NCBI GenBank assembly: GCA_020746835.1
Contig: JAGPNK010000002.1
Location: forward strand, 62,001 to 126,000
DNA: 64,000 bases
Source: Stachybotrys elegans
Lineage: Eukaryota; Ascomycota; Sordariomycetes; Hypocreales; Stachybotryaceae
Direction of reading: 5' to 3'
The notes under the pieces: generated by a model
Database searches by the model: none
What the model was told of the DNA's origin: nothing
The model's input: the letters and a program-made list of their open reading frames with translations, nothing else
Shown: piece after piece, positions 4,378 to 59,100 of the stretch
How positions within the stretch are numbered: position 1 is the stretch's first letter
Layout of the letters: the number at the start of each line of letters is the position of its first letter
Program-made: the position numbers and the translations under genes

Positions 4378-7300
4378 TATAATAACTATAGCTATAAATA
4401 GTATTATAGCTATATTAGGCTAGAAATATATAATTATATAAGGCCTAGCTTTAAAATAGAGTTTAAGAAATATATATAAAAAAACCTTTACTTTTACTAT
4501 TATCTCTCTTTTTTTTTTCTTTTTATATATACTATTACTACTAAATTTAATATTTATTAATACTATATATAGTAATACTATAGATTTAACTAGAAGTTAA
4601 AATACTAAGGGTATTTTAAGTCTCTAAGAATAATTTATATTACTTAAGGCTATAAATAATTAAACTATTAATACTTAAGTAAGTCTATTTATTTTAAAAG
4701 GCCTTTAAGAAATAGTATTATTAATAGTTTATATTAATAGACTAGGGCTTTTAAGCCCTTTAAATAATAGTTTAAAAGTTTAAATTTAAACTCCCTTTAG
4801 AACTAAAGGGAAAAGAAAAAGGCTAATAGACTAGTTAAGTATATAAAGGCTATAAAAATATAATAGTCTAATTTATATTTTAGAGCCTATTTATTCTTTA
4901 TAACTAATATATTCTGGCTAGAGAAGAATAAAAGGCTATTAAACTATTAGAATTATAGAGATAGTTATCTAGTATATTACTTTAGTAAAGGGAGGTAAAG
5001 GGCCTTTTTAATATTAATTATTTCAGGCTATATAAAGCCTAGATAATATTTAATATATTCTTAACTTTTAAATGAAAGACTCTGCTTATTAATTATATTA
5101 CTATTAGTCTATTTATAATTATATTTATAACTATAGCCTTTATAACTACTAAAGGGATATTTCTTTTATATAATTAAAGCCTTAATATAGTGCTTGGAAT
5201 ATAGATAATTAAGTATATTATATAATAGGCAATTGGGCATTTATATAATCTATTTAACTTTAGTATAGCTAGAAGGAAATACTTACTATTCCCCCTTAAG
5301 TAGTCTTTGCCCTATACTTAGAGAGGAAAAGAATAGTATTAAATAATAAAGAGATTATTAAATAACATTTTCTATTAACTAAAGCTAGAGAATAATAAAG
5401 GGGCTATAGTAGTAATAATAATAGTAAGATTAGTAAACTTAATGTATATATATACTATTTATTAGTCTATTTACTATTATATTAAGTATTATTTTATAAA
5501 TAATAAAAATAGTAGTATAAATACTTTAGTTCTTATATATATTTTAATAAAGCTAGCTAAAAGTACTATTATTAAAAGTAATATATTAAAATTAGAATAT
5601 TATCTTTATAATTCTAGTAAAAGTCCTTAAATATATAATAGCTATAACTATAAATAGTACTATAGTAATATTAAGCTAGGAATATATAATTATATAAAGT
5701 TTAGCCCTAAAATAAAGTTTAAAAAATATATATAAAAAGGCCTTTACTCTCTTTATTATCTCTCTTTTTCTCTTTTTTCTATTTATACACTACTAGATTT
5801 ACTCTCTATTAGTAATAAACTCATAATAAACTAACTAAATAATTAAAATACTAAAGATATTTTTAAGCTAAATCCCCCTACTAAATAGCCTAAGGTTATA
5901 TATAGTTAGACTACTTAAATATAAATAAGTTTATTTATTTTAAAAGACTAAGAAATAGTATTATTAATAGTCTATATTATATAATAAACTATACTCTTTA
6001 AGCCCTTTAAAAGACTTTTAAATTATTCTAATTTAAATTATTAAAAAATAAAAGGTAAAAAAACAGAATTCTTTTTTAAAGTAATTAAATATCTCTAGCC
6101 TAAAAAATAGCTAGGTACTAAAGCTAAACTAAAAATAACCTTTAAAAATAGACTTTAATAAACTATCTATTATACTACTTAATAAAGAAATTTAAGTATT
6201 TTAAAAAGGCTTAAATAATATTTAATATATTTTTAATTTATAAATAGAAAACCTTTTGCCTTATTAATTATATTACTATTAGTCTATTTATAATATAGTA
6301 AGTATATTTAGTATATAAAAAATAATAATAGTATATATAAATAATAGTGGCCTTACTACCTATAGAAATAAAGAATAATATTAAATAATAAAGGGATTAT
6401 TAAATAATATTTTCTATTAGCTAGAGCTAGAGAATAATAAGGGGACTATAGTAGTAATAGTAATAGTAAGTATAAGTATATATAGTTAGAGAGACCTATA
6501 GTTAGTAGACTAGTCTCTTAATATATATATATACTGTTTGTTAGTATATATTCTAATAAGGCTAGCTAAAGGTAATATACTAAGAGTAATATACTAAGGT
6601 TAGGATACTATATATACTATAATTCCAATGGAAGTCCTTAGACTATATAGGCTTATAATAAAGAAGTATATAATAGCTATAGCTATAGATAGTACTATAG
6701 CTATATTAGGCTAGAAATATATAATTATATAAGGCCTAGCTCTAGAATAGAGTTTAAAAAATATATATAAAAAGGCCTTTACTCTTTCTATTATCTCTCT
6801 CTTTCTTTTCCTTCTATTTATACACTATTAAATTCACTCTCTATTAGTAATAAGCATAATAAATTAAATGAATAACTAGAATGCTAGGGGCATTTTAAAT
6901 CCCCCTACTAAACAGCCTAAGGCTATATATAGCTAGATATAAATAAGTCTACTTATTCTAAGAGGCTTTCTTTAATCTATTAATAAATAGTATTACTAAT
7001 AGTAATAAAACCCAGTATTTAAGCCCTTTAAATATCTATTAGATTATTCTAATTTAAATTATTAAAAAATAAAGAATAGAAAGAAAGAATTCTTTTTTAA
7101 AAAGACTAAATAGTTACTCTCTTACTAATAAAGACTAGAGCTAGACTAGAAATAACCCTTAGAAATAGGCCTTAATAAACTAGTATACTACTTTAATAAA
7201 GAGAGATAGAGGGCTTTATAATATAATACTAAGTGTTTTAGACTATATAAAGCCTAAATAATATTTAATGTATTCTATAGATAGAAAACCCTACTTATTA

Positions 7301-7765
7301 ATTATATTACTATTAGTCTATTTATAATTATATTTATAACTATAATTCCTATAGTATATAGTTAAAGCCTTAATATAGTCTAATGTAAATAATTAAGTAT
7401 ATCTATTATATAATGGGCAATTAGGCATTTATATAACCTATTTAACCTTAGTATAGCTAAAAGAAAGAAAAGACTTATAGCCCCCCTATTCCCCCCCCCC
7501 CCCCCTCTAAGCAGTCTTTGCCCTATACTTAAGGGGGGCTATTAGTCTATTTATAATTATATTTATAATTATAGTCCCTATAGCTATAAAAGAAATATCT
7601 CCTATATAGTTAAAGCTTTAATATAGTCTAATATAAATAATTAAGTATATTATATAATAGGCAATTAGGCATTTATATAATTTATTTAACCTTAGTATAA
7701 TTAAAAAGAGAACCTTATTAATACCCCTTCTTTTTTAAGTAGTTTTACTTTATACTTAGAAAAAT
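4378..7765 (+). repeat. Head-to-tail array of an unclassified ~1.2-kb repeat (RIP-degraded)
   Basis: The same ordered blocks recur in one orientation. A block with TAGCTATA..AGTACTATAGC followed by GAATATATAATTATATAAGGC and a TATA-like stretch (ATATATAAAAAGGCC) begins at about 4,378, 5,634 and 6,671. A terminal block (GGCAATTAGGCATTTATATAA to CCTATACTTAGG) ends near 5,320, 7,535 and 7,765. A 5' block (AGTATTAAATAATAAAG..ATTATT) starts near 5,325 and 6,360. Copy junctions include 6,293, where a truncated copy abuts a new copy beginning TAATATAGTA. No open frame survives. Mutations are almost all transitions to A/T. Full-length relatives lie at 9,842-11,080 (plus) and 54,929-56,102 (minus). I cannot assign a class: no clear terminal inverted repeats and no TG..CA ends are visible. 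Confidence 0.75.
7491..7505 (+). repeat. Poly-C tract (15 C)
   Basis: An uninterrupted run of 15 C sits just before the terminal block of one copy of the 1.2-kb repeat, next to a shorter CCCCCC run. It stands out in DNA that has otherwise lost nearly all C. Other copies have only 4-5 C at this point, so it probably expanded by slippage, or is an assembly artefact. Confidence 0.8.
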
Positions 7766-9841
7766 AAGAATTTATATAAGTAATTAAAGAATATAAATAA
7801 ATATATATAAAAAAAAGTTAGTAAAAGTTATTATAAATAGTATAATTTAATTTTATTCTAGCTAAAAAAAACTTTTTAATTCTAGTAAAAATAAAAATAA
7901 AATATTAATAATAATACTATTTTAAAATACCTTTCTATAAATATATTACTTTAAGATATTTATTATAAACTTAGTTTTTTTATTATAGTATTACTTTACT
8001 TAGTTAACTTTAATTAAAATTAATAAATATTAAATAGTATTATAATTTAAAGACTTAATATAAGTATTAGTAAGGTAAGAACTTTTTAATTAATTAAAGA
8101 GTTTAAAAAGTTATATTTAAATAAAATTATATTTAAATATTAAAAGTATTATAATAAAGAAAAGAGTATATAATATAAAGTATAAGTAATAGAAAGTAAA
8201 TAAATAGTAGAGATAGTACCTAGTATTTTAGTAATTAATATAGTTATAAATAGTAGAGAAAAATAATAATAAAGCCATTATTAGGCTGTCTATATAGGGT
8301 AGCCGACTGGCTGAATGGCTGACTAGCCGAGCTATAGATAGCTATAACTTTATTATAAGCTATATAACCATACATAGACATATAATATAATAGAATGTCA
8401 AGCTGGCTCGTAGATACACATATATATATATACGTATAAAGGGTTAGGGCGGGGTTAAATAAAGTTACTAACGCTATAAAAGCCTTACTATAACTATAAC
8501 TATAACTGTGCCTAGATAGAGAACGCTACTAGTAATGTAAATGGAAAGCTTTAACTAATGACACTGGAAAAGCCATTGCTCTAGGCTGCTAATAGAGAAA
8601 AGCTTATTCTGCTTTTAGTCTATAGCTATATAAAGCCCTTAAGCCTCTAGCTTAAAAGAGAAGAATTCCTTATCTATATTACTTAAACATCTATTAATAT
8701 AGAATTAAATAATAATAATAGTAATAATATAGTAGAGAGATAAAATCCCTTTACTACTTTAATAGCTATAATAGTTCTAGCTACTACCTTTATTTATATC
8801 TCTAATAATATTATTATTAAGGTAAGTCTTTTTAAATAGTTTAATAATAGTATTACTAATAGTCTAGAAATAGAATAACTTTTATATATTTCTAATATAT
8901 AGTAATTTTAATAAAGAATTATACTTAAAGTCTAAAAAAAAAAGTAAAGAAAGGGATAAAAAGCTAGAGAAAAACCTAGAGATAGAGTTAGAATATATTA
9001 AAAGCAATAGTAAATACTAGCTATAAGGCTAGCTTACTTTAGAAGCCCTAATAAAATTGGCTTGGTTTTTTAATTAGGGTTTTTAATTAGTTTTTTAAAT
9101 TGGTTTTTAAATTAATTACTCTTACTATTTTTAAATTATATGCCTAATGCCTTTATAATATAATATTATAAAGAGCTATTAATAAACTATAGTAGCTAAA
9201 GTATAAGTAATATATTAGAAGCTATAGTTATATATAAAAGTATATAATATATTAAATACTATAGTTATATATAAAAGCTATATACTAAGCTATAAAGAAG
9301 CTATAGCTATATAAAAAGGCTAATATATAATATAAAGGAGCTATAAGAGAAGTATATAATATAGAGAACTTACTTAGTTAGTAATATATATAGAAATAAG
9401 TCTAGAGTAAGCTAGAAAAGATAGTAAAAAAAAAACAGTATAAGCCTTTTAAATTTTATACTCGGGAGGGTTAAAAGTATTATATCTATATATTAATTGC
9501 CTTTTTTAATTCTATAAGTAATAAAGCTATTATTATTTATATATACTATTATTCTTTTTTCTATACTAAATATACCTATTATATTATATATAAATTTATT
9601 TTATTTAATTATTATTTAATTTAATATTTTTATATATTTATTTTATTATTATATTTATTATTATAATATATTTCTATTTTACTATATTAATTTAAATACT
9701 TAAAGTTAATTAAATAAATTATATTTTATTTTAGTATTTTTTTTAACTTTTATTAAATAATAAAATTAAGTTTTTAATTTTATTATATTAAAAGAATAAT
9801 AATTATAATATACTAGTTTTAATTATAAATTATTATAAATA
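7766..9841. other. AT-rich relic DNA with no gene
   Basis: No coding capacity is seen; stops are dense in all frames. Two things stand out. About 8,284-8,610 is noticeably less AT-rich than its surroundings and carries repeated GCTGACTAGCCGA/GCCGACTGGCTGA-like words. About 9,510-9,600 is a reverse-complement fragment of the 5' end of the 1.2-kb repeat found at 9,842. The rest is A/T with scattered remnants. Confidence 0.6.
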
Positions 9842-11080
9842 TAATATAGTAAATATATTTAGTATAGAAAAAAAACAATAGTATATATAAATAATAGTAG
9901 CCTTACTACCTATAGAACTAAAGAATAGTATTAAATAATAAAGGGATTATTAAATAATATTTTCTATTAGCTAGAGCTAGAGAATAATAAAAGAGCTATA
10001 ATAGTAATAGTAGTAGTAACTATATATAAGTGTATACAGTTAGGGGGACCTATAGTTAGTAGACTGGCCTCTTAATGTATATATATACTATTTGTTAGCC
10101 TATTTATCTAGCTCTTATATATATTCTAATAAGGCTAGTCTTAAAGGTAATATACTGCGATTCCAGTGGAAGTCCTTAGGCTATATAGGCAATAAAGAAG
10201 TATATAATGGCTATGGCTGTAGATAGTACTATAACTACATTAGGCTAGGAATATATAATCTAGTATATAAAGCCCAGCCCTAGAATAGAGTTTAAGAGAT
10301 ATATATAAAAAGGCCTTTATCTCTCTATTATATATCTCTCTCTTTCTTTTCCTTTTATCTATATATTAAAATCTTTATTATTAATAATATAGTAGCTCTA
10401 TATTCTTAATAGAGAATATAAACTAAAATGCTAGAAATAGTATAATCTCCCTAGAGTAGGGATACTAGTAGCTTGCTTAGACTAAAGATAGCTAAACTAT
10501 AGAGATAAATCTATTTATTCTAAGAGACTAAGAAATAGTATTACTAATAGTAATAGACTAGGGCTTTTAAGCCCTTTAAATAATAGTTTAATAGTTTAGA
10601 CCTAGGCCTTCTCTAGAACTAGAGAAGTAAGAAAAAGATAAATAAAACTAGTAAGCCTACTAAAGCCTTTTTTAAACAATAGGTCTATATTTTAAAGCCT
10701 ATTAAACTATTAGAATAGTAAGAATAGCTAGTATACTACTTTAGTAAAGAGAGATAAAGAGCTTTCTTTAAGTATTTTAAATTAAAAGGCCTAGATAATG
10801 TTTAATATATTCTCAATCTATAGATAGAAAACCCTTATTAATCGTACTGTTATTAGTCTATTTATAACTATATTTATAACTATAGTCCCTATAGTATATA
10901 GTTAAAGCCTTAATATAGTCCCTAACTGAGGTTAGATAAGCAAAGATTATAAAGATTTATATAATAGCTATATAATAGACAATTAGGCATTTATATAACC
11001 TATTTAACCTTAGTATAACTAAAGGGAGAACCTTACTAATATCCCTTCCCCTTTAAGTAGTTTTACCCTATACTTAGGGG
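9842..11080 (+). mobile_element. Full-length copy of the unclassified ~1.2-kb repeat
   Basis: It starts with TAATATAGTA, the same terminus as the nested copy at 54,929-56,102, and ends with CCTATACTTAGGGG. All internal blocks are in the same order as in that copy. It is heavily RIP-altered and has no open reading frame of note. It carries a promoter-like TATA stretch (ATATATAAAAAGGCC) near 10,305. The 3' limit is uncertain by about 10 bases, because the G run and following GTTAC are not shared with the other copy. Confidence 0.75.
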
Positions 11081-11650
11081 GTTACTATAAATATATAATA
11101 AAGAATTATTATTTTTAAAAAAAATAAAGTTTAAAAAAACTTTATAAACTTTCCTTTTTTAATTAATTTAATAAATTTATTTTTACTTTAATTATTAATA
11201 AAACTATTAATAAAGTATAAATAAAGCTAAAGTTTATAATAAACTCTATTTTTTAATTAGCTATTTTAATATATATATATTAAATAAGCTTTTTTTATAT
11301 ATAGTAAATAGCTTTTAAATAGCTATATTAATAACTAAACTTAATATATTATATTCTTTTTAAAATTCCCTCTAATATTAAATAATTCATTATTATTATT
11401 ATACTTTTATAGTTATTTATACTGCCTAACTATTCTCTAGCTTTAGTCTATTAGTACTTTAGTAGTTTACTATTATATTTATTAACTATAATAAACATTT
11501 TATAGTTAAATTCTATTTTTATAGTTTTATATTTATACTAATAGTAAGTTAGTATCTAATTACTATTATATAGGTCTAAGGTATTATTAAGCAGTAGATT
11601 TAGCTATATAAATAGAGAAGTGTTTAGTTTAGTATTATTAGATAGCTTAA
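11081..11650. other. AT-rich DNA up to the isochore boundary
   Basis: No gene is seen. Composition stays extremely A/T until about 11,640-11,700, then changes abruptly to normal GC. This marks the left edge of the gene island. Confidence 0.7.
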
Positions 11651-12310
11651 TAATCCAACCAGTAGTGCAGTACTAGCTCATCCACTTGCTTGTGTAAAAT
11701 AACATATAAATTGAAAAGGAGTTGCTTGTTGAACCTCCCACACCTCATTACCGCGCGAGTACTGCTCCCTCTACTCAACATCAAACTCATAAACACACCG
11801 CTGAGGCCGCTCAGGTAGGTATCAACGCGCCAATCCGCATTTTCACGGCGAAGCCTGGAAGATCCACACCTAAAGTAAGGGTCTCGTCAGCTCAGAAACC
11901 CGTCGGCACGTTGACTACCGATTCGGCTCTTGCATCTGTTATGGTGACAATAACAAGCTCGTAGATCCCCTAGAAGATGCGCCACGAGTCTACTCGCGTC
12001 CGAGAGGGTAATTGAGATATTTCCCAGTGGCAGTCCGCGGCGCAGATGGGCAAGCAACGTTGCGTTCAGGGTCAAGGGGAAGTCGTCCCCGCCCCAGTAT
12101 TAGTTGAAGCCGACCATTTGTCGGCTTCGTCTTCCGAACCGATGTGGAGAAACACTTTTCGGCAAGGTTCTCGGAGGGGTTCTCTTCGCTTCCGCCTTGC
12201 ACTCTGAAAGTTCATGCCGAGACTCAGTGAACCACCTCTAGTAATTCCTCAGAATCTATATGGCCTTTTATTGCTAACTCTTCTAAAAAGCCTCAAGTCT
12301 GGCTTGAGTC
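11651..12310. other. Edge of the gene island, no convincing gene
   Basis: GC-normal DNA with short open frames on both strands (11,722-11,964 plus; 11,887-12,202 minus) that resemble no family I know. They may be the remains of a gene broken by the repeats to the left. A plus-strand frame running to a stop near 12,105 looks like a C-terminal tail but has no recognisable upstream part. The perfect inverted repeat at 12,106-12,128 lies here, downstream of the NCS1 permease gene. Confidence 0.4.
12106..12128. promoter_or_regulatory. Perfect 9-5-9 inverted repeat with CCG-N9-CGG
   Basis: GAAGCCGAC and GTCGGCTTC arms flank the spacer CATTT. It contains CCG-N9-CGG, the everted-triplet arrangement some zinc-cluster regulators bind. 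It could equally act as a hairpin terminator or 3' processing signal of the convergent-side NCS1 gene ending at 12,311. Function is inferred from geometry only. Confidence 0.35.
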
Positions 12311-30074: not shown

Positions 30075-31420
30075 CTACGGAGCCTCAACTGCCAGAGGAG
30101 CCGCTGGCTCTGTACGTATAACTCTCTTCTGAATTAGCGGGCTGTCGTCGTTTATCTTCTTGTATTCGTGTGCGTCCAGACAGGCCGTTCGGCTCCTGAG
30201 TACAGCAGGTGCAGCTCTCTCTACCATGCCCTTTGTGTAGGCTTTGCAGGCGTCGCTTATTTCGCTGCTCTCTGTATCGGCCTTGGTGAGTACCGGGAGG
30301 ATGTACGATACAAGTAGATGCACGTCTGCGATGCCGTGGTTCGCAGCCTCACCCCTGTACATGGTCATGGCATGTGCAGAGTCACCCACTAAGATAACAC
30401 AGTCGGAGCCAGAAATGGCATTCCAGTTATCTTGTGGGGGAACCCAGTCTTCCAGAGTGATAGTCTTCACATCTGTGTCATCCGGGATTGACTGCACGAT
30501 CGTTCGAAACGGGTCAGCCCAGTTGTGGGAGATCCGCTTCATCGCTTTCACTCGCTCGATACCCTTTGCAGGAATCTCCAGGGGCTCAGATTCGCCCAAG
30601 AAGCCTGGCCGGTAGGGCCAAGACACGAGGATTTGGCACTCGCGGCTATCGTCCCCCCGGCCACTAGATGCTGGACTGTCGAGAAAGGAGAACCAGTGAG
30701 CGGCATCAGTCTTTGGGTCGCCTCCTTGGAAGAAGAATGGGTCCAGCTTTCGGACTGGAGCTGTGAGCTCTTTGGGATAGATGGTACTTGCGCCAAGCAG
30801 TCGGACTGGCAGCTGGTAGTTATTGTGCACAGCAGGGTCCGGGAAGAGCGAAGAGCGCACGCGGGAGCGAGAGCCATCGCACCCGACAATAAGACACCCC
30901 TCAACGGTATGAGATCCAGAAGGAGTGCTGAAATTTGCCGTCGCCGACCCATCTGCGCCTGCTTGGAATGACTCAAAGGTATGATTCCACTGCAGAGTCC
31001 TCGTTAGCACCAGAAATTCGAACTGGTCAATCATGCGATGAACCTTACCTTAATCGGGATGCCGTCCATCAATACTCGACGGAATTTCTCCCTGGCCATC
31101 CGAATTCTCTTACTCGGCGGAACCTGCCACAAGGCTTCCGCCGTGACCAGGTTGAAGAAGAGAAAGTTTCCATTTTCGCCATTGCGGGTTGCGTCGCCAT
31201 CAACGTACGCCTCAGGCAGGCGACCAATGATGCGTTGAGGCAGCAGCTCCAACAGAGAGGACAAGGCCCAGTGGATGGTGATACCCCAACCTTTGCCGCG
31301 GTGCAGGGGATCAGGATCTCGCTCATAAATGACAACGGGTATCGATTGCTTGATGAGAGCCTGGGCAAGCACCAGGCCAGTAATCCCGGCACCCACGATG
31401 ACAACTGGTTTCTGTGACAT
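30075..31420 (-). CDS. FAD-dependent monooxygenase (class A flavoprotein hydroxylase)
   Basis: Uses NAD(P)H and O2 to hydroxylate aromatic or heteroaromatic rings. Two exons (31,420-31,049 and 30,989-30,075; 59-nt intron with a perfect GCTAAC branch site and CTGCAG acceptor) give 428 aa. The GAGITG Rossmann motif is at residues 10-15, the DG motif in GCDGSRSRVR at about 161-170, and the GD motif in VGDSAHAM at about 325-332. These are the three signatures of the aromatic-hydroxylase group. It is divergent from the HOD-like dioxygenase across 590 bp. In bacteria, AqdB and PqsH, flavin monooxygenases of this class, make the 3-hydroxy-4-quinolone that HOD-type enzymes then cleave. An equivalent role here is inference. 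Confidence 0.88.
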
Positions 31421-32010
31421 GATTGCGAGTGAAGAGGAAGTGCTGACACTGCGATATGTGCTCCAAGCAACGTGATGTCGTGATGTTATAGCCAACTGTT
31501 TGAAGCTAACGATGGGAAAGTTTCATACAATCCCGTCGTATCCGGAATTGAATCACGACCCCATTCCAGTGTGTGGAGAGAGCTTATCGGTTGTGGAGCT
31601 GCATCTGTTAGCTCGCGTCCATGACTCGGGTAACCTCGCGCGCACATACATGCTGGGGTCCCCATATCCACGGAGTATGCTGAGGCTTACGGTGTAGGCA
31701 TCATGCTTATCTGCCTGCATTCTGTTTCATTCTATCAGACCGTGCCGCAAATGAAGAGGCTGATCTCTATCTACAACTCTTTCCCCTCCTTCATAAGGAG
31801 TCGGCTTTCGGCAAGACCATGGCCGGCCAGCCCACCGGTCTCGGATAATGCGCTTACCGTGGAACAGTATCGGACCGAAACCGGTCTCTCCGCGTTTACT
31901 CCAGGGCATATCTAAAACCCAGCTGAACTCCCAATCGCCCTCCAGTTTCACAGCTTCACGTATTCTCTATCAGCTCATTCTACTCCTCCCACCTGAGATA
32001 TCTTACCATC
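31421..32010. promoter_or_regulatory. Divergent promoter between FAD monooxygenase and HOD-like dioxygenase
   Basis: This 590-bp region holds the fifth CCCGTCGTAT word (31,532-31,541) and two direct copies of ACCGGTCTC (31,834-31,842 and 31,880-31,888). CGGACCGAAACCG (31,871-31,883), rich in CGG/CCG triplets, overlaps the second copy. A TATA-like TATCTAAAA lies near 31,909, about 100 bp before the dioxygenase ATG. Shared control of the two genes is likely from the arrangement. Confidence 0.45.
31834..31888 (+). promoter_or_regulatory. Direct repeat ACCGGTCTC x2 upstream of the HOD-like gene
   Basis: Identical 9-mers at 31,834-31,842 and 31,880-31,888, start-to-start 46 bp, about 125-175 bp upstream of the ATG. 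The spacing places them on nearly the same helix face. Possible regulator sites, not demonstrable from sequence alone. Confidence 0.35.
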
Positions 32011-32835
32011 ATGTCTCAACATATGTACCTCACCAAGACAATCAACGGGGTCGAGATATGCTATGATCAAGCCGGATATGTTGAGGGGCCCCCTGTTGTC
32101 ATGCTGTCGGGTTGGGCGCACGACATGCGTGTCTACGAGGGCATGATTCCGCACCTGATCAACAACCACCGCATCATTCGATTCAACTGGCGAGGCCACG
32201 CACCCAACAGAGACTACACTGCCGATTTTGGTGTTGAAGAGCAAGTCAAGGACACCATCGGTCTCTTGGAAGCACTTGGTGTTGACAAGTTTTACCTCAT
32301 TTCTCATTCTCACGGTGGATGGCCAGCGCTCGAACTCGCCGACAGGCTAGGAAAGGACCGAGTGTTGTCACTCCTAATGATTGATCAAATCATGTCACCG
32401 CCTCCTCCTGAGTTTGCCAGTGGGCTCAAGGCCATGCAGGATCCCGAGACATGGTTGGCAACGCGCAAAGGGCTGTTCGACAACTGGATGTCGGGCAGCG
32501 ACAACAAAGCCGTGCAGGACCACCTTGTGTATTGCATGGGTAGTTATGGACACGACATGTGGTCGCTCTCGTGCCGCGTCATAGAAGGCGCATACGAAAC
32601 TCACGGCTCACCCATGCATCGCATGCGCAAGATTGCCAACCCCCCGCCTATCCGTCATATCTTCTCTCACCCCCACAACTCTCCAGAGTACCACGCTCTG
32701 CACGAGGAGATGGCAAAGGAAAACAGCTGGTTCTCCTACACAGATTTAAAGGGAGAAACACACTTCCCAAGTGTTGAGATCCCGGAAAAAGTGTGCGAGG
32801 AGCTAGAATCCTTGATCGCAACAATTGGCAAATAG
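32011..32835 (+). CDS. Cofactor-free 2,4-dioxygenase of the HOD/QDO type (alpha/beta-hydrolase fold)
   Basis: Likely cleaves a 3-hydroxy-4(1H)-quinolone-like ring with O2, releasing CO and an N-acyl-anthranilate-type product, without metal or cofactor. Single exon, 274 aa, the size of bacterial HOD. The residues known for HOD are all present at nearly the same numbers: W35 and H37 in GWAHD, H99-S100-H101 in SHSHGGW, D125, W159 in GLFDNW, and H251 in GETHFP. The family-specific stretches VIEGAYETHGSPM and PIRHIFSHP are also present, whereas ordinary esterases lack the His-Ser-His elbow and paired Trp/His. It is divergent from the FAD monooxygenase and 223 bp from the end of the carboxylesterase gene. 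Family assignment is strong; exact substrate is inference. Confidence 0.85.
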   Translation: MSQHMYLTKTINGVEICYDQAGYVEGPPVVMLSGWAHDMRVYEGMIPHLINNHRIIRFNWRGHAPNRDYTADFGVEEQVKDTIGLLEALGVDKFYLISHSHGGWPALELADRLGKDRVLSLLMIDQIMSPPPPEFASGLKAMQDPETWLATRKGLFDNWMSGSDNKAVQDHLVYCMGSYGHDMWSLSCRVIEGAYETHGSPMHRMRKIANPPPIRHIFSHPHNSPEYHALHEEMAKENSWFSYTDLKGETHFPSVEIPEKVCEELESLIATIGK

Positions 32836-33058: not shown

Positions 33059-34354
33059 TCAAGCTGAGAACTGAAAATCGTTGTTGATGACAATTTTTTC
33101 GCTGGCAAGCTTCTCCCCCTTGGCAAACGCAACCCAAAGGCTTTTTACCGCATCACCAAGGGTCTCCAGTGCTTCCTGAGATGCAGCCCCCCGAAGAGAT
33201 GGTGCATCTTTCCACGCGGACCAGTCGCCTAGGAGAAATGGAAGGTCGATGCAATGCGTAGCCTTGAGCTTGTCGCTCTCACTTGGATACCATGCCATCT
33301 CATAAGTGGGCGGCCGTTCTCCAAGCTCGGCAGTCATCCGCTGCACCAGTCGGTCCGTTGAACCCTTGAAAAGGTTGCTGAGGTACTCCAATGCCTCCTC
33401 CCTCGTGTCGATCTGTGTAAATGCGGAGGCCTCATCAGATGTATATCCAAGAAACATGGGACGCTGTTTGGCAGCAGATATGAAACTAGTGATGGCCTGA
33501 TCCCGTGGTGGCAGAGGATACTGGCCATAGACGGGACCAAAAGCAATGAGAACAGGCGCAGCTGCTCTGGCGATACCCAGGAGTTCCTTTTGAAGGTCGA
33601 GTATTGCCAGAATACTGATAGTCGACGCAGTATCAGGGTTAATCTGAAGGCTGCTGTGCTGAGACATGGCAGCTACCACTTTATCCATATCTTCATCCTC
33701 CACTGAGCCCTGTGGAGGGCTCTGCAAGATCCCACGATGGAACAGAATTTTCGCATCATCAATGGTAGACAAACAGAATATAGCCTCAGCGCCTGCCGAT
33801 TGGCCAAAAAGGGTCACGTTGCCCGCATCTCCACCGAAGCCGCTGATGTTTCGGTTTATCCACTTCAAAGCTGCGACTTGGTCCATCAACCCTAGGTTCG
33901 CCGGAGCGACGTTGGGAATAGGGACATAGCCCAGCACGCCAAGCCGGTGGGTGACTGTGACAGCGACAACACCCTTCTTGGCCAGAAGGTGAGGGCAGTA
34001 GGCGTCGAGATCTCCACCTCCGCTGACGTATGCCCCCCCATGGAGGAAGACCATGACGGGAGCATTGTGAGCAGACGCTGGGGCCACGACGCTCACGTGT
34101 AGACAGTCTTCGTCCTGAGCTCTACCCTTTTCCAAGTCCCCGTTGACAACACCCAGCCGCGATGGAAGCTGTGGGCATAAAGAAGCTGGTCCTGTGCAGT
34201 CCTGGACCTCAGTCCAACTGGAAATTGGCTCAGGCTCAGAGAACCGGGCCGCTCGTGCATACTTGACTCCCCTGGCGCGCACGAGGTTCCCGTCGGCGAG
34301 AGCAGTAATAGGTCCACCAGGAAGTTGAACAACGACTTTGTGAGGAGAGTCCAT
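33059..34354 (-). CDS. Type-B carboxylesterase / amidase-like hydrolase
   Basis: Hydrolyses esters or amides. Single exon, 431 aa. Oxyanion motif HGG is at 105-107, nucleophile S186 in FGQSAGA, acid E308 in YTSDEASAF and H367 in KATHCIDLPF, the normal triad order of the family. DEDCLHVSV (81-89) is the type-B signature 2 region. It is shorter than typical secreted members (about 550 aa) and lacks a signal peptide, so it is probably intracellular, which suits a metabolic role. It lies tail-to-tail with the HOD-like gene. In bacterial quinolone degradation AqdA, also an alpha/beta-hydrolase, releases anthranilate from the N-acyl product. I infer but cannot show a comparable step. Confidence 0.88.
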   Translation of the reverse strand: MDSPHKVVVQLPGGPITALADGNLVRARGVKYARAARFSEPEPISSWTEVQDCTGPASLCPQLPSRLGVVNGDLEKGRAQDEDCLHVSVVAPASAHNAPVMVFLHGGAYVSGGGDLDAYCPHLLAKKGVVAVTVTHRLGVLGYVPIPNVAPANLGLMDQVAALKWINRNISGFGGDAGNVTLFGQSAGAEAIFCLSTIDDAKILFHRGILQSPPQGSVEDEDMDKVVAAMSQHSSLQINPDTASTISILAILDLQKELLGIARAAAPVLIAFGPVYGQYPLPPRDQAITSFISAAKQRPMFLGYTSDEASAFTQIDTREEALEYLSNLFKGSTDRLVQRMTAELGERPPTYEMAWYPSESDKLKATHCIDLPFLLGDWSAWKDAPSLRGAASQEALETLGDAVKSLWVAFAKGEKLASEKIVINNDFQFSA

Positions 34355-48204: not shown

Positions 48205-48480
48205 CTTTGGCAATATATTCAGATAGGAAGATCGGAAATAAGAGTGAGCTCAAAAGATAAAGAACTTCGTTATGGCACGGTAAATGCTATGCGGTGTTGA
48301 TAGAAGGGGTGGTATGAAGAACCAAATGATGTGCTCTGCGGGATTGAAGGGGCAGAATGAAGCAAATCGGCTACTTTAATAGAATTCCTGATGCTCTGCC
48401 CTAATGGGATAGACATTAGTGACTCGCAGGAGGCTCCGTTATGAGTCATCTTGAGTCTGACTGTTACGGTGGTATATAGT
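48205..48480. promoter_or_regulatory. Promoter of the dehydratase gene and right edge of the island
   Basis: GC-normal DNA up to about 48,480, where composition switches to almost pure A/T. CCCTAATGGGATAGACAT near 48,400 resembles a word at 34,678. Confidence 0.35.
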
Positions 48481-51034
48481 AAAAAAAGGTCTATAAGTAA
48501 GCAATGCCCCCCACCTGCCTGACCTATATAACTGCTCTAATTTATATTTTAACTTTAAATTGTAATAATATAGTAACAATAGTATTTTAATTATTATAGC
48601 TTTAAGATATAGATTTATAATATTAATTATTTTATTATATATATTAAATTTAACTTATAGAGTATATAGATAGTATATACTTAAATAAAATAGTATATTA
48701 TACTATTAAAGCTCTTATAATATCTATAATTTCTATTAACTTTATTAACTCTATTAATTCTATTAACTCTATTAACTTTATTAATTCTATTAGCCCTATT
48801 AATTTTATTAACCTTAACCCCTTAAAGAAACCTAACTCTATACTTTCTCTATAGCTTTATAAATATATAAAAAGTATATAGAGAGAAGAAAGATCTTATT
48901 ATATAGTTTCTTAAGCTAATTATTTACTAAACTATACTAGTATTATTTTTTTAAGTAGCTTTAATATACTTTTAATAGTTAATTTACTTCTAGCTTTTCT
49001 ATTGCTTTATTTACTAACTCTAACTCTTTTAATAAACTAACTTTTTCTTTTAACTATAGCCTTTATACTAATTCTTTTTTTTTCTAACTTATTTACTTAA
49101 TTAGTTTCTTTATCTCTTTAAATAAATACTATTATAAAAAGATAAATATTTAGAATAGCTTTTAAATCTATATTTACTAAAGCTAGTCTATTAAATATAG
49201 TAAAGTTAATTATTAATAGTTTAGTTTCTTTCTTTATATTTACTATATTCTTTAAATACTTTTAAAATAGCTATTACTTTTTAAACTTTAATTTTAATAG
49301 ATTTAAAAGCTTTTATTCTTTAATAATATAAAGGTTAAGCTAAATAATAATATAATTATCTTTAAAAGCCTAGTTAAATATATTATCTTTAGAAAAAAAG
49401 TTATAAAAGTTATTAACCCTAATATTATATATAATAAAGAAAAAGGCTTTTATTTTTAACTAGGTATTTCTTTTCTATTTAGTTTTAAAAGATATAAAGT
49501 TAAAGTTATTAAAATTAAAATAGTTAGATAGATATTTATTAAAAAACTCTTAGTTATTAAATATTTAACTTTAATCTAGAGAATTATTAGTAAATTAATT
49601 AATTCTAATAAATATTAGTTTTTTTAACTATTTAATAAAATAAAAAGACTATTAAACCTAATAGAGTACTTTAAAAAGCCTTAAATAAACTACCTTTAAG
49701 TAAAAAGCTAGTAATATAAACTACTTTAATTTATAGTAATAGTCTATATAGATTATTAAAAAAGAACTTTAATATTAATACTTTTATTTTAGCTAAGGCT
49801 TTTTTAATATTAGTTTAGAACTTATTAATATTATATAATCTCTATTTATATATACTAATTAGTATTAAAAATCTTAATAATATATTTCTTTATAGTATAT
49901 ATAGTATTATTTACTCTATATAAATTTTTTATTATAGTTAGCTTACTTAATTAAACTTCTATTTACTATTATTAATATTATTATTAAAGACTATAATTAA
50001 CTAATTAATAACTTAACTAAGTATAGTTAATTAATATATAGTAATTAAAGAGACTTTAAAGTCTATAATATAAAGTAAAAAAGTAAGAGTTTATAGTAAT
50101 ATAAAGTACTTATAGTATTAAAGATATTTTACTTTACTATAACTTATTTATATATATTAAAAATAGTATTAATTAATTAGTCTATTTATAAGTATTTAAT
50201 TAATACTAAATATAACTATTTAAGAAGTACTATAATATAGTTATAAATAGCTTACTTTAATAGAAAGTATATATAAATATAGTATACTAACTCTATTAAG
50301 AGAAAAAGAATTTATAAAATATAGAGAAAACTATTTTTAAACTATTAATTAGTACTATATAGTAAGATTAACTATAATACTTTTAAGTTTAACTTTATAG
50401 TCTTTTTTATTAGTATATTAATATTATAAAAGCTATTTTAAATATTAAAAGCTAGAGTTAAAAACTATAAAAAGAAATATATTATTTCTAGCTTTTTAGA
50501 AATTAAACTAATAATTTATAAAAAGAAATAGTAATAAATATAACTCTTTATACTATTAATTATACTTATTACTATATTTATAATAAAGATATTTTAATAT
50601 ATAAATAAAGTAAAAATATATTAAAGAAGACTCTTTAGCTTTATAATAAAGTTAACTTTACTTATATTAAAGCTAGAAAGTTTTCTTTTATTACTTTTTA
50701 AAATATAAATAGTAATAAGTATAACTACTAGACTATTATAATATTATATAGCTATAAAGTAATTACTTAGAAAAGTACTATATTATTTTAAATTATAAAG
50801 ACTTAAGCCTACTTTAAATAGTTTAATTAGTAAAGGAATTAAATAGTTAAAGTAATATTTTAATAGTTTTATAATATTACTAAATTTAGTTTAATTTTAA
50901 ACTAAAAATATAGAATTAATTAATAAAGGCTATATAATTCTAATAGTTTACTCTAATTATAATTTAATAAAGGATTTATAATATTATAATAGTAATAATA
51001 ATTTTATATTACTAGGACTAATATAATAATCCAG
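48481..51034. other. RIP-degraded AT-rich DNA, no gene
   Basis: Dense stops in every frame and very few C or G. It contains a 9-bp tandem repeat at 48,732-48,812. No protein domain could be read in either strand. Probably old transposon remains. Confidence 0.6.
48732..48812 (+). repeat. 9-bp tandem repeat (about nine units, YYTATTAAY)
   Basis: Units such as TCTATTAAC, TTTATTAAC, TCTATTAAT and CCTATTAAT follow each other without gaps for 81 bp. The length is a multiple of three, so it may be the remains of a tripeptide repeat in a decayed coding sequence, or simply a minisatellite. Confidence 0.7.
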
Positions 51035-51390
51035 TCTATTTTAGTTTAGAGTAAATAAAAATAAATTAGTAATTAAAATTTTAAAAAGCTAAGTTAGGTT
51101 TATATTATAATATTAATTATAGTATTATATTTAGTAATATACTATTTACTAAGAGTAAAAGTATAATTAAATTATATTAATAATTAGTAAGTATTTTAAA
51201 AAAGTTTATAATATTTATCTTTATATATTTATATAGTTTAATATATTAATAATAGTTAATTATAACTAATTATATTCTATTAATATATATAGAGTTAATA
51301 CTTATTAACTATAGTTAATTATATACTATTAATTTATATATATTATATAACTTATAGTTTTATAATTTTTTTTATTTAATTATATTATAA
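51035..51390 (-). repeat. Long terminal repeat, left copy
   Basis: Matches 59,670-60,030 in direct orientation with scattered transitions. Given the minus-strand reverse transcriptase, this is the 3' LTR. Confidence 0.7.
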
Positions 51391-54300
51391 TATAATATTT
51401 CTTTTAAATAGTTTAGTTTTTAAAACTACTCTTTATAATTACTTTAGTTAAGTAAATAACTTTTTTTCTTTATTATTATATTCTTATATATTACTAAATA
51501 TATATTTAAATTTAAAGTTATTACTAAGTATTATTATACTATTACTACTTATATAATTAAATTTAGTTTTAAAATACTTTATTATATATATTACTTTTAT
51601 TTAAATTATTTTTATATTATTATTAAAAGTAAATATTAATATAACTATTATATTAAGTTAAAATAGTTAAATTATAACTTTAATAGTATTTCTATATAAA
51701 CTTATAAATTATTTTTTCTTTATATATATTTTATTATTATTTTTTAATAAATATAAATTACTTATATTTTCTATAAAAAGAATTATTTAAAGAAATAAAA
51801 AGAGTAAGTAAAAATAGATTTTCTAAAGACTTTAGTTTATTTATAATATCTTTATTAGTAAAAAAAAACACTTTATACTAAAATAGTAAAAATACTTTAT
51901 TATAAAGTAAAGAACTTAAATAAATTAAAAGTAATAGAAATTATAAAAGTTTAAAAGTATAAGACTTTTTTATTTAAAATCTAACTATTAAAGAACTATA
52001 TTTCTATTAATTAAAGTTTTCTATTAAATCTCTCTAGCTTTAATTTTAAGATTATATTTTTAAATACTTTTATATTTTCTTTTAAATATTTATAAAATAC
52101 TATAATAGTTTTTATATATTATTTAAATTAGAATAGTTTTTTTATTTAATATAGTACTTTATTTATCTTTCTTTTATTTATAAGTCTAGGATTTTTTTAA
52201 CTTTTTATTTCTTTTAAAGTATAATAATTAAATTTAACTATCTTTTTATATATATTATATTTACTATAGTTTTAAATAGAAATATATAAAAAACTAAATA
52301 TATTTATATTTTATTTAATATATTAAGTTTATAATTATTTTTATTTATTTTATTTATAATTTTATAAAGTTCTAAATATTAAATATTAAGTTTTTTATTT
52401 AGTTATATTATTAAAATATTTTTATTATAAAGTAAACTATATTTTTCTTTAAAAAAGTTAGTCTTTTTAATTTTTTTTATTATAATATTTAGCTATTTAT
52501 TATTATATAAAGAAAAGTTATTTTTATAGTTTATTATAAAGATTCTATAGATTTTCTATTTTAATAATTACTTTTAGTATATTTAGTTCTTTTTTAGTTT
52601 TATAAAATAATTCTAATATAAACTTAAAGTTAGCTATTATTAGAGTTATTTTTATACTTTTATTAAATACTATATTATAAATATATTATATTATTAATAG
52701 CTTTTCTAACTAATTATTTTATTTATAGTTAATATAGTATTATAAATATACTTTTAGTATTTAATTTATTTATTTAGTTTATTTATTTACTAAAAGTCTT
52801 TAGACTATTATAAGCTTATAATTTAATTTTATTCTAGTTATAAAACTTTACTAAAACTTAAATATAAATAATAATTCTCTATTTAAAATAATATTATTTA
52901 ATAGTTTATATATATTAATAATTATTTATAGAAAAATATAAAAGAACTATTTTATATTTATTACTTTTTAATATAATATAAAGTAAAAAAACTTTATAAG
53001 TCTATTTATAATAATAAAAATATTATTATATATTACTTTAGTAATAAAGTTATATAATAAAAGTAATTTTATATTAAAGTTTATTAATATTAAGTTTTAT
53101 AGTTATATAAAGACTAATAGAAACTATAGTAATTTATATAATTTATAATATTATACTTTATTAGTTATATATTTATAGTATTTTTTAATAACTTTTTTAA
53201 CTTATTTCTTTATTTTAGTAAAAATATATTTTTTTTAAAATTATTTTATTATTTATTTACTTTAGAGTATTTATAAAATAGTAACTTATATATTTCTTTA
53301 ATAAGTTTAAATTATTTAGTTTTATTTTTAATAATAGTAAGTTTAACTTATTATATTAATATAATCTTTATTTATTTATTTTTATTATTAAACTATTATT
53401 TACTTTTATAATTTTTAATATATAGTAGTTATATTATAAAATAAAATTCTTAAAGTATATATTAATATTATTATTTAGTTTATAAACCTTTTTAAATTCT
53501 TATTTTACTTTTTTATACTATTTTTAATAATATTATTTTATAATATAATATTTTAATTAATAAAATAAAATTATCTTTTATTAAAATATTACTTTATTTT
53601 TTATTTTAGAATATATTATATATAAAATAATAAAAACTAATTTAGTTTTAATTATTATAGCTTTTATAAATATTCTTATAATAATATTAATAGCTTTATT
53701 ATACTTTTAATTTACTTATAGTATTCTTTTAGTATTTTTTCTAATAGTTATTTTTTAATTAAAGTTTATTTTATATTAAGATTTAGTTTTAATTAATAGT
53801 ATTTACTTTACTATTTTTTATTTTTTTTAATAAATTATAATATAATTAAATTCTAATATATATTCTATATATTTTAATTATTATTTACTAAATTATTAAA
53901 TTATTATAAAGTATATAATATTTTTATAATTAATATAGATTTTTATTTAGTATTTATTTTTAAATATATAATATTTAAATTCTTTTATAATATTAATAAT
54001 TACTAGAAATTCTTTATTATAAATTAAATAGTTAAGTTTTAGTTTATATAGTTTATATAAGTAAAATATAATTAAATATAATTTACTATTTTTATTATAT
54101 TATTTAATTTAGATTTTAAAAATAAAATCTAAAGTATTAGTTTTTAAATTTACTTTTTTATTAAAGTTAAATATTTAAATACTAATTTATTAAAAATAAA
54201 TTCTTTAATATATTTAAATACTTTTATTATAGTTTATTTTAATATTAAATAAAGTTATTATTAATAACTTTTTTTTATTATATTTATAAGAAATATAGTA

Positions 54301-54928
54301 ATTTTTTTAAAATTTTTAAAAAACTTTTAATAATAATTAGTAAATTCTAAAAAGGTTTATATTTTCTTAATATTAATAGATTTCTTTTATTTAATAATTA
54401 TTATAATTTTCTTTAGATTTATTTAGATTTTATTATAAAATATAATATATTTTAAAAATTCTATTTTTTATATAGAATTTACTCTTTTTTAATTCTATTA
54501 ATAAATTTATATTTTTAAATAATTTAAATATTATATATATATATTCTTATATTCTTTTTTATTATTTAAAAAAATAAAAATATTATTAAAATAATATATT
54601 ATAAAGTAATTAAAATACTTTTTTAAAATATTATTAATTATTTTTTAAAATAAAGTTAGTATATTAATAAGTTTAAAGAGTATTATTAAGTATTTAAATA
54701 GTTTATATTTTATTTAAAATATTATTTTCTATTTATTTATTTTTTAATTTAAATAAAATTATAGACTTTTTTAAAGTTTAAAGCTATAAATATTCTTTTT
54801 TATATAGTTAGTTTTTTATTTTATTAATTAATAAAAGTAATTTATAATCTTTTAATATAATTTTATTTAGCTATTAATAATTAACTATAAGTTATAGTTT
54901 ACTATTTTTTTTAATATAAATATAATAA

Positions 54929-56102
54929 TCCCTAAGTATAGAGTAAAACTACTTAAAGAAAAAGGAATATTAATAAGGTTCTCTTTTTAATTATACTAAG
55001 GTTAAATAGATTATATAAATGCCTAATTGCCTATTATATAATACACTTAATTATTTATATTTTAAAAACTATATTAAAGCTTTAACTATATAGAAGATAT
55101 TTCTCTTATAGCTATAGGGACTATAGTTATAAATATAGTTATAAATAGACTAATAGTAGTATAATTAATAAAGGTTTTCTATTTATAGATTAAGAATATA
55201 TTAAATATTATTTAGGCCTTTTAATTTAAAATACTTAAAGAAAGCTCTTTATCTTTCTTTACTAAAGTAATATACTAACTATTTTTACTATTCTAATAGT
55301 TTAGCTTTAAAATATAGGTTTATTATTTAAAGAAGGCTTTAGTAGGTTTATTAGTTTTATTTATCTTTTTCTTATCTCTTTAGTTCTAAGGGGGATTTAA
55401 GTTTAGACTATTAGACTGTTATTTAAAGGGCTTAAAAGCTCTAGTCTATTAATATAAACTATTAGTAATACTATTTCTTAGTCTCTTAGAATAGATAGAC
55501 TTACCTTTATTTAGCTATCTCTAGCCTAAGGCATAGTAGGCTGCTAGTGTCCCTACTTTAGGGGGTTATACTGCCTCTAGTATTTTAGTTTATATTCTCC
55601 ATTAAGTGTTAATAATAAAGATTTTAATATATAGATAGAAAGAAGAAAAAGAGAGAGGTAATAGAGAGATAAAGGCCTTCTTATATATATTTCTTAAACT
55701 TTATTCTAGGACTAGGCCTTATATATTAAATTATGTATTCCTGGCCTAATATAGCTATAGTACTATTTATAGCTATAGCTATTATATACCTATATAGCCT
55801 AAAGACTTCTATTAGAATCGTAGTATATTACTTTTAAGCTTAGTTTTATTAGAATATATACTAATAAATAGTATATATATATATTAAGTTTACTAACTAT
55901 AAGTCCTCCTAACTATATATACTTTTACTACTACTATTACTATTATAGCCCTTTTATTATTCTCTAGCTTTAGCTAATAGAAGATATTATTTAATAATTC
56001 CTTTATTATTTAATACTATTCTTTAGTTTTATAAATAGTAAGGCTACTATTATTTATATATACTATTATTCTTTTTTCTATACTAGATATACCTACTATA
56101 TT
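54929..56102 (-). mobile_element. Nested copy of the ~1.2-kb unclassified repeat with 13-bp target duplication
   Basis: The reverse complement matches the copy at 9,842-11,080 block by block, from TAATATAGTA (at 56,102) to CTATACTTAGGG (at about 54,930). ATAAATATAATAA occurs exactly at 54,916-54,928 and again at 56,103-56,115, directly flanking the element. This fits a target-site duplication and fixes the true ends of the family at 1,174 bp. It splits the reverse transcriptase of the surrounding LTR element, so it inserted later. The variable, fairly long duplication suits target-primed retrotransposition, but no ORF or poly-A tail is visible. The AT-rich background weakens the duplication somewhat. 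Confidence 0.75.
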
Positions 56103-59100
56103 ATAAATATAATAAAGTAATTTATTAAAAATTAAAATATTTATATATAACCTTTATATAGGTTTTTTCTAGATATTCCTTTAGTATATTACTTTTTTAT
56201 TATTAAAGTTATAAATAGAGTAAAAATCTAGTTTTATTTTATTTTTAAAGTATATAATATAGTTTTATTATAAATATTAAAATAGTTTAGTTTTTAATTT
56301 TTTTTAAAAAGCTTTTTATACTTTTAGTATTATTATAAATATTCTTTAGTTTATTTTTTTAACTATTAGTTTATATTTTTAAATCTTTATTAAATTATAT
56401 AAACTAATATTTAAAAATCTAATTATTTTTAATATTATTTTATATATTTTTTTTATTATTTATATTATATTTCTTTTAAAAGCTATTTTTCTTTTTATTT
56501 TTAATATTTTATTACTTAAAGTTTAAAATCTTTATTATAATATTACTAATTATTAATTATATTACTTTAAAGGCTTATATTTAGCTAGTATATTAATAAA
56601 TTAATAGATTATATTATTTAAACTATAAATATTTTAAAACTATATTATAGTTTTTAATTAATATAATATTAAAAGTAATATTTTATTTTTATTTTACTAT
56701 AAAGATTTTAAATTAATTAATCTTTTATTTTATATAGTTTTTATTATAATTAAATATTCTTTTTTAAAATCTTTTATTAAATATAATTTTATTTATTTTT
56801 TATAGTAACTAGAATTAATTAATAATATTTAGTTTAATTAAATTCTTTTAACTTTATTATTTATAAAGGTAATAAACTAATTCTTTTTTATTTATATTTA
56901 AATTATTATTTTTAATTATTATATTATTTTTATTAAGCTTATTACTATATATAAAGCCTTTTATTTATTTATTTTTTAATTATTATTTTATTTATAGTCT
57001 TTTATAAATAGTATTATTTATTTTTTATATAGTACTATTAGTTAATTTTAGTTTCTTTATATACTTTATATTTAGAATATAAATATCTATTTAATTCTTT
57101 TTTTAATATATTCTCTATTATATATATATAGTATTAGTTATATAATTACTATATTATTAATAGTTTATTTTATTACTTTATATTTACTAGTTTTATTATA
57201 TTATACTATTTTATAATAGTTTAGTTATAACTTATATAAAAAAGTATTTATTTTATACTTTTTATACTAATATTTTTATAATTATAATAGTAATATAAAA
57301 CCTATAAAATAGTATAGTATTATTAATAGTATTAATATAAAATTAAATTATATATAGAATTTTTATTTAAATATTTATTAATATTTATATTATAGAGATT
57401 CTATATAAATAGAATATTTTATTAGTATTCTATTATTAAATTATAGTATTTATTTTTTTACTATAATTTATACTTTTTTTATTTTTTAATTATTATTATT
57501 TCTTTAAATATTAATATTATTTTTAATATTTATTTTAAATACTATAAATTAATATATTATTTTAATAAGTTTTTATTTATTTTATTTTATTATTTTTTAT
57601 AACTTTTTTTTAGTTTTTTAAAAATAAAGTTAAAATAAAAATCTATTAATACTTTAATAACTCTTTCTTTTTATTATTTATTATTTATTATATAATTATA
57701 ATTATTTACTATTCTTTTATAAAGTTATTTTATTTAATTTTTAGTATTAATAATTATTTTATTTACTCTTTAAAGTATATTATATAAACTTTCTTTTATT
57801 TTATTTTATTTAGTTTTTATTTAATAAACTTATATTATTACTTTTTTTACTATTTTTAATTAATTTAAATTTATTTATTTTATATTAACTTCTATATATA
57901 TTCTATTTAATATATATAATTTATTCTAGTTTTTATTTATTTATATTATTTTTATTAATTTTAAACTTTAAATACTTATAACTTTATATTTTTTTTTATT
58001 AATTATTTAATTATTAGTATTTAATATAATTTTAACTTTAGTAATTACTTTAGTAAAATTATATATATAATTCTATAGATTTTATTATAAAAGTAAATAT
58101 ATATTAAATTATTTTTATATTATATATATATTAATAATAATAATTATTATTTAAAAATATAACTTTATTTTTTAATAAGATATTTTATTTATTTTTTAAA
58201 TTAAAATTTTTTTTTATATATTATTATAAATATTTTAATATATAAATAAAAGAATATTATAATAAATATTATATAATTCTTTTTTTAATATTATTATATC
58301 TTTATATAGTATATATTTTATTATAAATAAAACTTATTATTTTTTTATTTTTATATATTTAATATTAGTTATTATAATATATAGTTTAATATATTATTTT
58401 ATATAAAATTATTTTAATTACTATTATAATTATTTTAATTTTAGTTTATTTTTTTATATTAATAATAGTATTTTTTTTTAAATATTTTAAAATATATTTT
58501 TTATTTATTTTAGAACTTTAATATTTATATATAAAGTATTTTTTTTATTATAATTATAATATTTAACTTTTTTTTATTATATTTTTTTTTCTTTATATTA
58601 TTAATTTTTATAAATTTTATATATATTTTTTATAAAATAATATTTTATTTTTATTTTTAATTTATTATTTATTAAAAATATATAAATATATTTTAATATT
58701 TTTTTTTACTTTTATTAATAAAATTATTTATTAATATAAATTACTATAATAATATATTTTAATATTATATTAAATAATTTATTTATTTTTATAAATTTAT
58801 TTTTAACTTTATTTTTTAATTTAATATAAATAAAATTAATAATAATTTTTTATTTTATTTTAAAATAGCTCTTAACTATTATATTTTTTAATATAAAAAG
58901 TAATAAATTTAATTTATTATAGATTTTATAATTTTATTATTATTTATTATTTTTATTAATAATACTAAATATATTTTATATTTATTTTTTAAAGTTTTTA
59001 AAATTTTTATAAATTTATTTAATTTTATAATTTTATTTATTATTATTATTTTTATTTTTATTAAAAAACTTTTATTATTTTTTAAAAATTAATATAAATA

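Follow-up and report, generated by a model that had tools for sequence, protein, structure and literature searches.

Can a fungus open quinolone rings, and does it possess genes of its own for the task? The question is raised by one gene in a 64,000-nucleotide stretch of the Stachybotrys elegans genome (assembly GCA_020746835.1, contig JAGPNK010000002.1, positions 62,001 to 126,000; this whole stretch is called the window, and all positions below are counted within it):

32011..32835, + strand: gene of the HQD family (cofactor-free 3-hydroxy-4(1H)-quinolone 2,4-dioxygenases), single exon, 274 residues plus stop, translated without internal stop.

Our reading is that this gene probably encodes a true fungal representative of the cofactor-free HQD family, working with two neighbours, a monooxygenase dependent on flavin adenine dinucleotide (FAD) and a type-B carboxylesterase, as a quinolone-degrading module. 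The presence of the dioxygenase beside two genes of the kinds found in bacterial aqd operons suggests that fungi have their own set of genes for degrading quinolones. The preliminary description of the locus, made from the letters alone, singled out the dioxygenase and passed over these two neighbours, which recur beside it in other fungi.

That description had placed the protein in the family of HOD (1H-3-hydroxy-4-oxoquinaldine 2,4-dioxygenase) and QDO, and three of the checks it proposed, sequence search, tree and structure overlay, all bear this out. A phmmer search of PDB sequences gave 319 bits for AqdC and 240 bits for HOD, against 38 bits for the top match outside the family. As judged from sequence, the resemblance to HQDs is far beyond chance, and overall the protein is nearer to AqdC, a dioxygenase of the Pseudomonas signal PQS, than to HOD/QDO. 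The residues named earlier as important agree exactly with the alignment to HOD and AqdC, in which HOD W36, H38, H100, S101, H102, D126, W160 and H251 correspond to W35, H37, H99, S100, H101, D125, W159 and H251 of the window protein. The His-Asp dyad that acts as general base in HOD (H251-D126) is thus aligned as H251 and D125, the nucleophile elbow reads H99-S100-H101-G-G-W104, and HFPSVEIP occupies positions 251-258. Our homologue list holds 67 rows, 19 with a fungal name and 2 with a Nocardia name, and rows without an organism name were counted as fungal by their placement in the tree. Among the 62 other fungal or unnamed metagenome homologues H99, S100, H101, W104, D125, W159 and H251 are kept in every one, and W35 and H37 in 61, the remaining row being gapped there. 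The window protein is also identical to HOD at 16 of the 19 ligand-lining residues listed in PMC10548524, with A36, M142 and C188 replacing HOD C37, L143 and G189; AqdC itself departs from HOD at several of these positions.

Two patterns, H-x(2)-W at the nucleophile elbow and HFP-x(4)-P with the catalytic histidine, are reportedly given as marks of HQDs in the abstract of Wullich 2020. The first is present as H101-G-G-W104 and the second is found in each of the 63 fungal or unnamed rows, the window protein included, while both are absent from three other hydrolases of the S. elegans genome. The predicted fold is an alpha/beta-hydrolase core with a helical cap, and its nearest solved structures are HQDs, which are separated from the best other hydrolase listed by a Z gap of 10. 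When those three ordinary hydrolases and P0068 were added to give an 88-row tree, all HQD-like rows split from the four at 96/93. With the conserved residues and the predicted fold taken together, the window enzyme very probably cleaves quinolone rings with oxygen alone. In Pfam the protein matched general alpha/beta-hydrolase models only and in NCBIfam no model reached its cut-off, much as the preliminary description expected of genome annotation, but some fungal relatives already carry the name 1H-3-hydroxy-4-oxoquinaldine 2,4-dioxygenase in NCBI (e.g. in Aspergillus cavernicola, Fusarium globosum and Cyphellophora attinorum). Proteins so named, which are database names only, cluster with the window protein in the tree.

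What would such an enzyme do in a fungus? The best clue to a pathway is given by the genes on either side, since both recur beside the dioxygenase in other fungi. In the window they are arranged as follows:

30075..31420, - strand: FAD-dependent monooxygenase (group A type), 428 residues, two exons, divergent from the dioxygenase.
30990..31048, - strand: 59-bp GT..AG intron within the monooxygenase gene, containing a branch-like CTAAC site; the spliced product equals P0069 of S. elegans (100% identity over 100%).
31421..32010, no strand: 590-bp intergenic region between monooxygenase and dioxygenase, presumably a two-way promoter.
33059..34354, - strand: type-B carboxylesterase, 431 residues, with GQSAG at 184, SDEASAF at 306 and THCIDLPF at 366 (PF00135, E 3.7e-62); the proposed amide hydrolase of the ring-cleavage product, downstream of the dioxygenase on the opposite strand.

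Co-location elsewhere was analysed from tables of dioxygenase, monooxygenase and esterase homologues, a shared contig being inferred from rows whose contigs have identical base counts. The partner lists comprise the best 120 of 572 and the best 120 of 529 matches (119 monooxygenase rows were usable), and the counts that follow refer to the partner rows listed. A listed monooxygenase occurs on the contig of at least 6 of the 67 dioxygenase rows and a listed esterase on that of at least 10, against 0.08 and 0.12 chance matches, respectively, after shifting the base counts. Besides the window, at least 12 different contigs carry one or both partners, and all three genes lie on at least four contigs (of 8,339, 389,362, 2,762,016 and 3,555,488 bases). 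On contigs longer than 1 Mb a shared location is a weak link unless locus tags are close, and near-consecutive tags were found in four fungi: NLU13_6386, 6387 and 6388 of Sarocladium strictum (esterase, dioxygenase and monooxygenase), N7510_006583 and 006584 of Penicillium lagena (monooxygenase and dioxygenase), and, two tags apart, E0L32_004543 and 004545 of Thyridium curvatum and FE257_000071 and 000073 of Aspergillus nanangensis (both esterase and dioxygenase). Two further contig matches were set aside: P0050, whose contig of 2016 bases is too short for both genes, and P0034/P0190 (3489 bases), where the dioxygenase is at 63% and the esterase at 88%.

Reading the established family membership of the three proteins, their intact active-site motifs, the fold and the repeated co-location together, we infer the following reactions and their order. 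The monooxygenase would first hydroxylate carbon 3 of a 4(1H)-quinolone. The H251-D125 pair of the dioxygenase, as its conserved residues and fold suggest, would then remove the proton of the 3-hydroxyl group, the bound substrate would take up O2 close to W35 and H101, and the ring would open to give an N-acylanthranilate and carbon monoxide (CO). Finally, the carboxylesterase would cleave the amide to anthranilate and an acid. This scheme parallels the actinobacterial aqdABC pathway from HHQ via PQS and N-octanoylanthranilate to anthranilate, in which AqdB is the HHQ 3-monooxygenase, AqdC the PQS dioxygenase and AqdA the N-octanoylanthranilate hydrolase, as described in PMC5332414. As in aqdRABC of Rhodococcus erythropolis BG43 and M. 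abscessus, a type-B carboxylesterase, an FAD monooxygenase and an HQD stand side by side; on Rhodococcus pRLCBG43 and in Prescottella the carboxylesterase and the FAD oxidoreductase precede the dioxygenase. Unlike in aqdRABC, the fungal genes are separate, lie on both strands and include one with an intron, and Zn2Cys6 genes are nearby; no TetR gene was recognised among the part of the window's reading frames that was scanned. With tblastn, AqdA- and AqdB-like genes were both found in loci L005, L008, L009, L010 and L020 and a cut AqdA in L006, the short contig L007 gave no AqdB match, the HOD-type loci L011, L015 and L016 have an AqdB-like gene only, and L012-L014 have neither. The HOD gene itself (MeqE, a 3-hydroxy-2-methyl-4-quinolone dioxygenase of Arthrobacter Rue61a plasmid pAL1) is accompanied by genes for an FAD monooxygenase, another alpha/beta-hydrolase and a molybdenum hydroxylase, with no type-B esterase annotated within 6 kb.

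Which quinolone would be degraded, then? At two cap positions (HOD 157 and 177) the residues are F/Y and M/L/F in every one of the 63 fungal or unnamed rows, but V/A/L and S/A/C/T in nine AqdC-type enzymes. The window protein has F156 and M176 there, as HOD has F157 and M177, and lacks the small residues by which we define an AqdC-type PQS dioxygenase; HOD M177 is described as contacting the ligand and lining the substrate (PMC10548524). The elbow serine of the window protein and of all 62 others is likewise that of HOD, with which the window protein shares the catalytic residues and 42% overall identity, while AqdC, AqdC2 and the Prescottella and N. farcinica proteins have alanine. Thus AqdC of Mycobacteroides abscessus (PDB 6ra2, 6ra3, 6rb3) differs from the window protein in its elbow Ala and in V and S at the cap positions, and the N. 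farcinica HQD (PMC8961568) in its elbow Ala and in L and A. P0064 of N. farcinica, 55% identical to the window protein, is a candidate for the protein tested in that study. In 38 columns no residue is common to nine AqdC-type and seven HOD-type bacterial enzymes; there the fungal rows are AqdC-like in 29, HOD-like in 8 and neither in 1, by a crude majority tag of which several calls rest on few rows. From these residues the pocket for the carbon-2 group may be smaller than that of AqdC, and a quinolone with a small carbon-2 group is our first guess for the substrate. With bulky HOD-type residues at both cap positions in all 63 rows, PQS is therefore not the obvious substrate. A point against the smaller pocket is that HOD, too, cleaves PQS, with low activity according to PMC9687290 (PQS cleavage is also described in PMC5145850).

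There is a distinct possibility, on balance a doubtful one, that the enzyme acts on a quinolone of plant or fungal origin, whether to use it as food or to tailor a metabolite within a fungal pathway. The HOD-like cap positions are consistent with this, as is the spread of the named homologue rows over Sordariomycetes and Eurotiomycetes, and so are the permeases, the PhyH- and TauD-type oxygenases and the Zn2Cys6 regulators close by. The gene sits in a block of normal guanine-cytosine (GC) content of ~37 kb, from about 11.7 to 48.4 kb, which is rich in permeases and oxygenases in the frames scanned: a purine/allantoin-type permease, a sugar-type and a second MFS transporter, an amino-acid permease, a 2-oxoglutarate oxygenase, an epoxide hydrolase, a PhyH and a TauD-type oxygenase, a zinc-type dehydrogenase, a PALP enzyme and three Zn2Cys6 genes. 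On either side (1-11700 and 48400-64000) the window is AT-rich, down to 5% GC in 2-kb steps, with the first 2 kb milder at 37%. The "gene island" of the preliminary description is this block of normal GC between very AT-rich flanks. Genomes of this two-part make-up occur in fungi subject to repeat-induced mutation. Speaking against a plant or fungal quinolone, no polyketide synthase, nonribosomal peptide synthetase or anthranilate-activating gene was recognised in the part of the window frames scanned, and a term search of the S. elegans metabolite paper PMC4413796 returned no word starting with 'quinol'.

It is unlikely, if far from negligible, that the dioxygenase serves to quench bacterial alkylquinolones (PQS, long-chain signals and respiratory poisons of Pseudomonas or Burkholderia) met by a soil mycoparasite. 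S. elegans is described as a mycoparasite (PMC4413796), the overall sequence is closest to the AqdC types, and the top named bacterial matches are Nocardia proteins at 54-55%. PQS is degraded by the N. farcinica HQD, as reported in PMC8961568, and weakly by HOD itself, and the three enzyme classes are the same as in aqdABC. The cap residues set out above, one of which lines the HOD substrate, argue the other way, and disarming of PQS by the window enzyme is possible but not favoured.

Are the neighbours then partners at all? Several observations weigh against a three-gene module. Most of the 67 dioxygenase rows have no listed partner on the same contig (many of these contigs are short), and in two fungi the listed relatives of dioxygenase and monooxygenase lie apart on different contigs: N7462_005868 and N7462_003501 in Penicillium macrosclerotiorum, HMPREF1541_01806 and HMPREF1541_10195 in Cyphellophora europaea. 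Conversely, monooxygenase and esterase share contigs of 14,054, 40,193, 50,209 and 3,470,598 bases without a listed dioxygenase (P0185/P0222, P0117/P0191, P0073/P0200 and P0086/P0228, respectively), and this pair may therefore exist on its own. Both families are large, with 14 monooxygenase and 32 esterase matches in the S. elegans genome, the window genes included. The monooxygenase has no AqdB match by BLASTP up to E 10, and its best match, to the pAL1 monooxygenase, spans 51 residues at E 7.7. The esterase shares only 34-35% identity with AqdA and falls outside the AqdA clade. In a FastTree tree of 123 rows the 8 AqdA rows form a clade of their own (100) apart from the fungal rows, and fungal esterases whose contig also carries a partner gene are scattered over several other subclades. 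That tree leaves out 5 of 120 rows shorter than 360 residues, including P0214 and P0222, both of which have partner genes on their contigs; of its 13 rows labelled as linked, the window accounts for one, and for three others (P0191, P0200, P0228) the link is to a monooxygenase alone. Since neither protein is close to its aqd counterpart, the roles proposed for them come from their class and position. The dioxygenase might thus be the only quinolone enzyme here, with the neighbours incidental or the monooxygenase acting later, e.g. on anthranilate; in view of the above-chance sharing of contigs and the near-consecutive tags in four fungi, we regard this as rather improbable. The weakest alternative, that the protein has retained the look of an HQD but is an ordinary esterase or another alpha/beta-hydrolase, can point to S100 at the elbow and to the nucleophilic ability that the HOD serine is said in PMC10548524 to retain in hydrolase-like reactions, but the Z gap, the HFP-x(4)-P pattern and the tree split leave it very little room.

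How would fungi have come by a module of dioxygenase, monooxygenase and esterase? Transfer of a whole operon from actinobacteria was considered and rejected, as the dioxygenase alone is close to an aqd counterpart (54% identity to the Prescottella protein by BLASTP) and the monooxygenase and esterase are not. For this reason the gene set looks, in sequence, like a separate assembly in fungi around a related dioxygenase. In an 84-row tree, containing 63 fungal or unnamed rows and 21 others (12 AqdC-type, 7 HOD-type, Pantoea and the unnamed P0067, counted as bacterial; some rows are near-copies, and ordinary hydrolases and P0068 were left out), the 63 stand on one side of a branch with support of 100/99, recovered in 100% of 200 bootstrap trees. 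With a midpoint root at the Pantoea/P0067 pair the fungal rows group with the AqdC-type actinobacterial proteins (98/89), HOD types being outside, and this close kinship fits an old transfer between kingdoms in either direction. In the 88-row tree the added hydrolases attach inside the fungal set, which then needs two label changes, and two hydrolase rows and another hydrolase branch are at the length limit of 10; the fragment P0066 was left out of all trees. As these long rows attach inside the fungal set, the trees are compatible with more than one root, and hence with either direction of transfer. This lowered slightly our estimate, already below even, for the most specific version, which we now put somewhat short of an even chance: that Ascomycetes own a separately assembled quinolone-degrading cluster that matches aqdABC in its enzyme classes, made up of a transferred dioxygenase shared with actinobacteria and of fungal monooxygenases and carboxylesterases, with a pocket for smaller quinolones.

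Some further features of the locus and the family may be added. The intergenic region contains a repeated element:

31834..31842, + strand: ACCGGTCTC, copy 1, possibly a site for a Zn2Cys6 regulator.
31880..31888, + strand: ACCGGTCTC, copy 2.

These are the two exact matches in the window, against 0.09 expected (two were reached in 1 of 100 shuffles); with one mismatch there are 9 against 4.2 expected, none of them between the esterase start (34354) and 38000. The element was chosen after inspecting the sequence and carries no evidential weight. A search of the S. elegans genome found no second close copy of the dioxygenase, the three other matches being partial and 20-33% identical. No identical protein is among the 67 homologue rows listed, though rows for both neighbours came up, and the gene may therefore be absent from public annotation or have another gene model there. 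Sarocladium strictum has three different HQD family proteins (P0008, P0010 and P0040), two near that of the window and one in another subclade. A distant relative of about 28% identity is encoded on the Pantoea agglomerans plasmid pSUH1_A (L021, 4935-5723) and was found on 12 plasmid records of Pantoea, of which six came from onion; the pSUH1_A protein has neither the HFP-x4-P nor the H-x-HGGW pattern, and its chemistry may therefore differ.

The HQD family is already known, and so are fungal members by name in NCBI. The abstract of Wullich 2020 (Applied and Environmental Microbiology) reportedly names HQD candidates from all domains of life, and fungal ones may be among them. Our literature search, which had most subscription papers outside its reach, found neither a study nor a functional test of a fungal HQD, and likewise no fungal three-gene cluster for quinolone degradation and no eukaryotic catabolic pathway for the quinolone ring.

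Cofactor-free quinolone dioxygenases have so far been studied in bacteria. If our reading is true, the existence of a fungal clade whose partner genes recur would mean that fungi are able to open quinolone rings, and would help to identify the compound they encounter, be it a bacterial signal, a plant alkaloid or a metabolite of their own. It would also be a source of new enzymes for CO-releasing chemistry or for the quenching of signals. Three proteins of 274 to 431 residues are enough for a direct test of the question.
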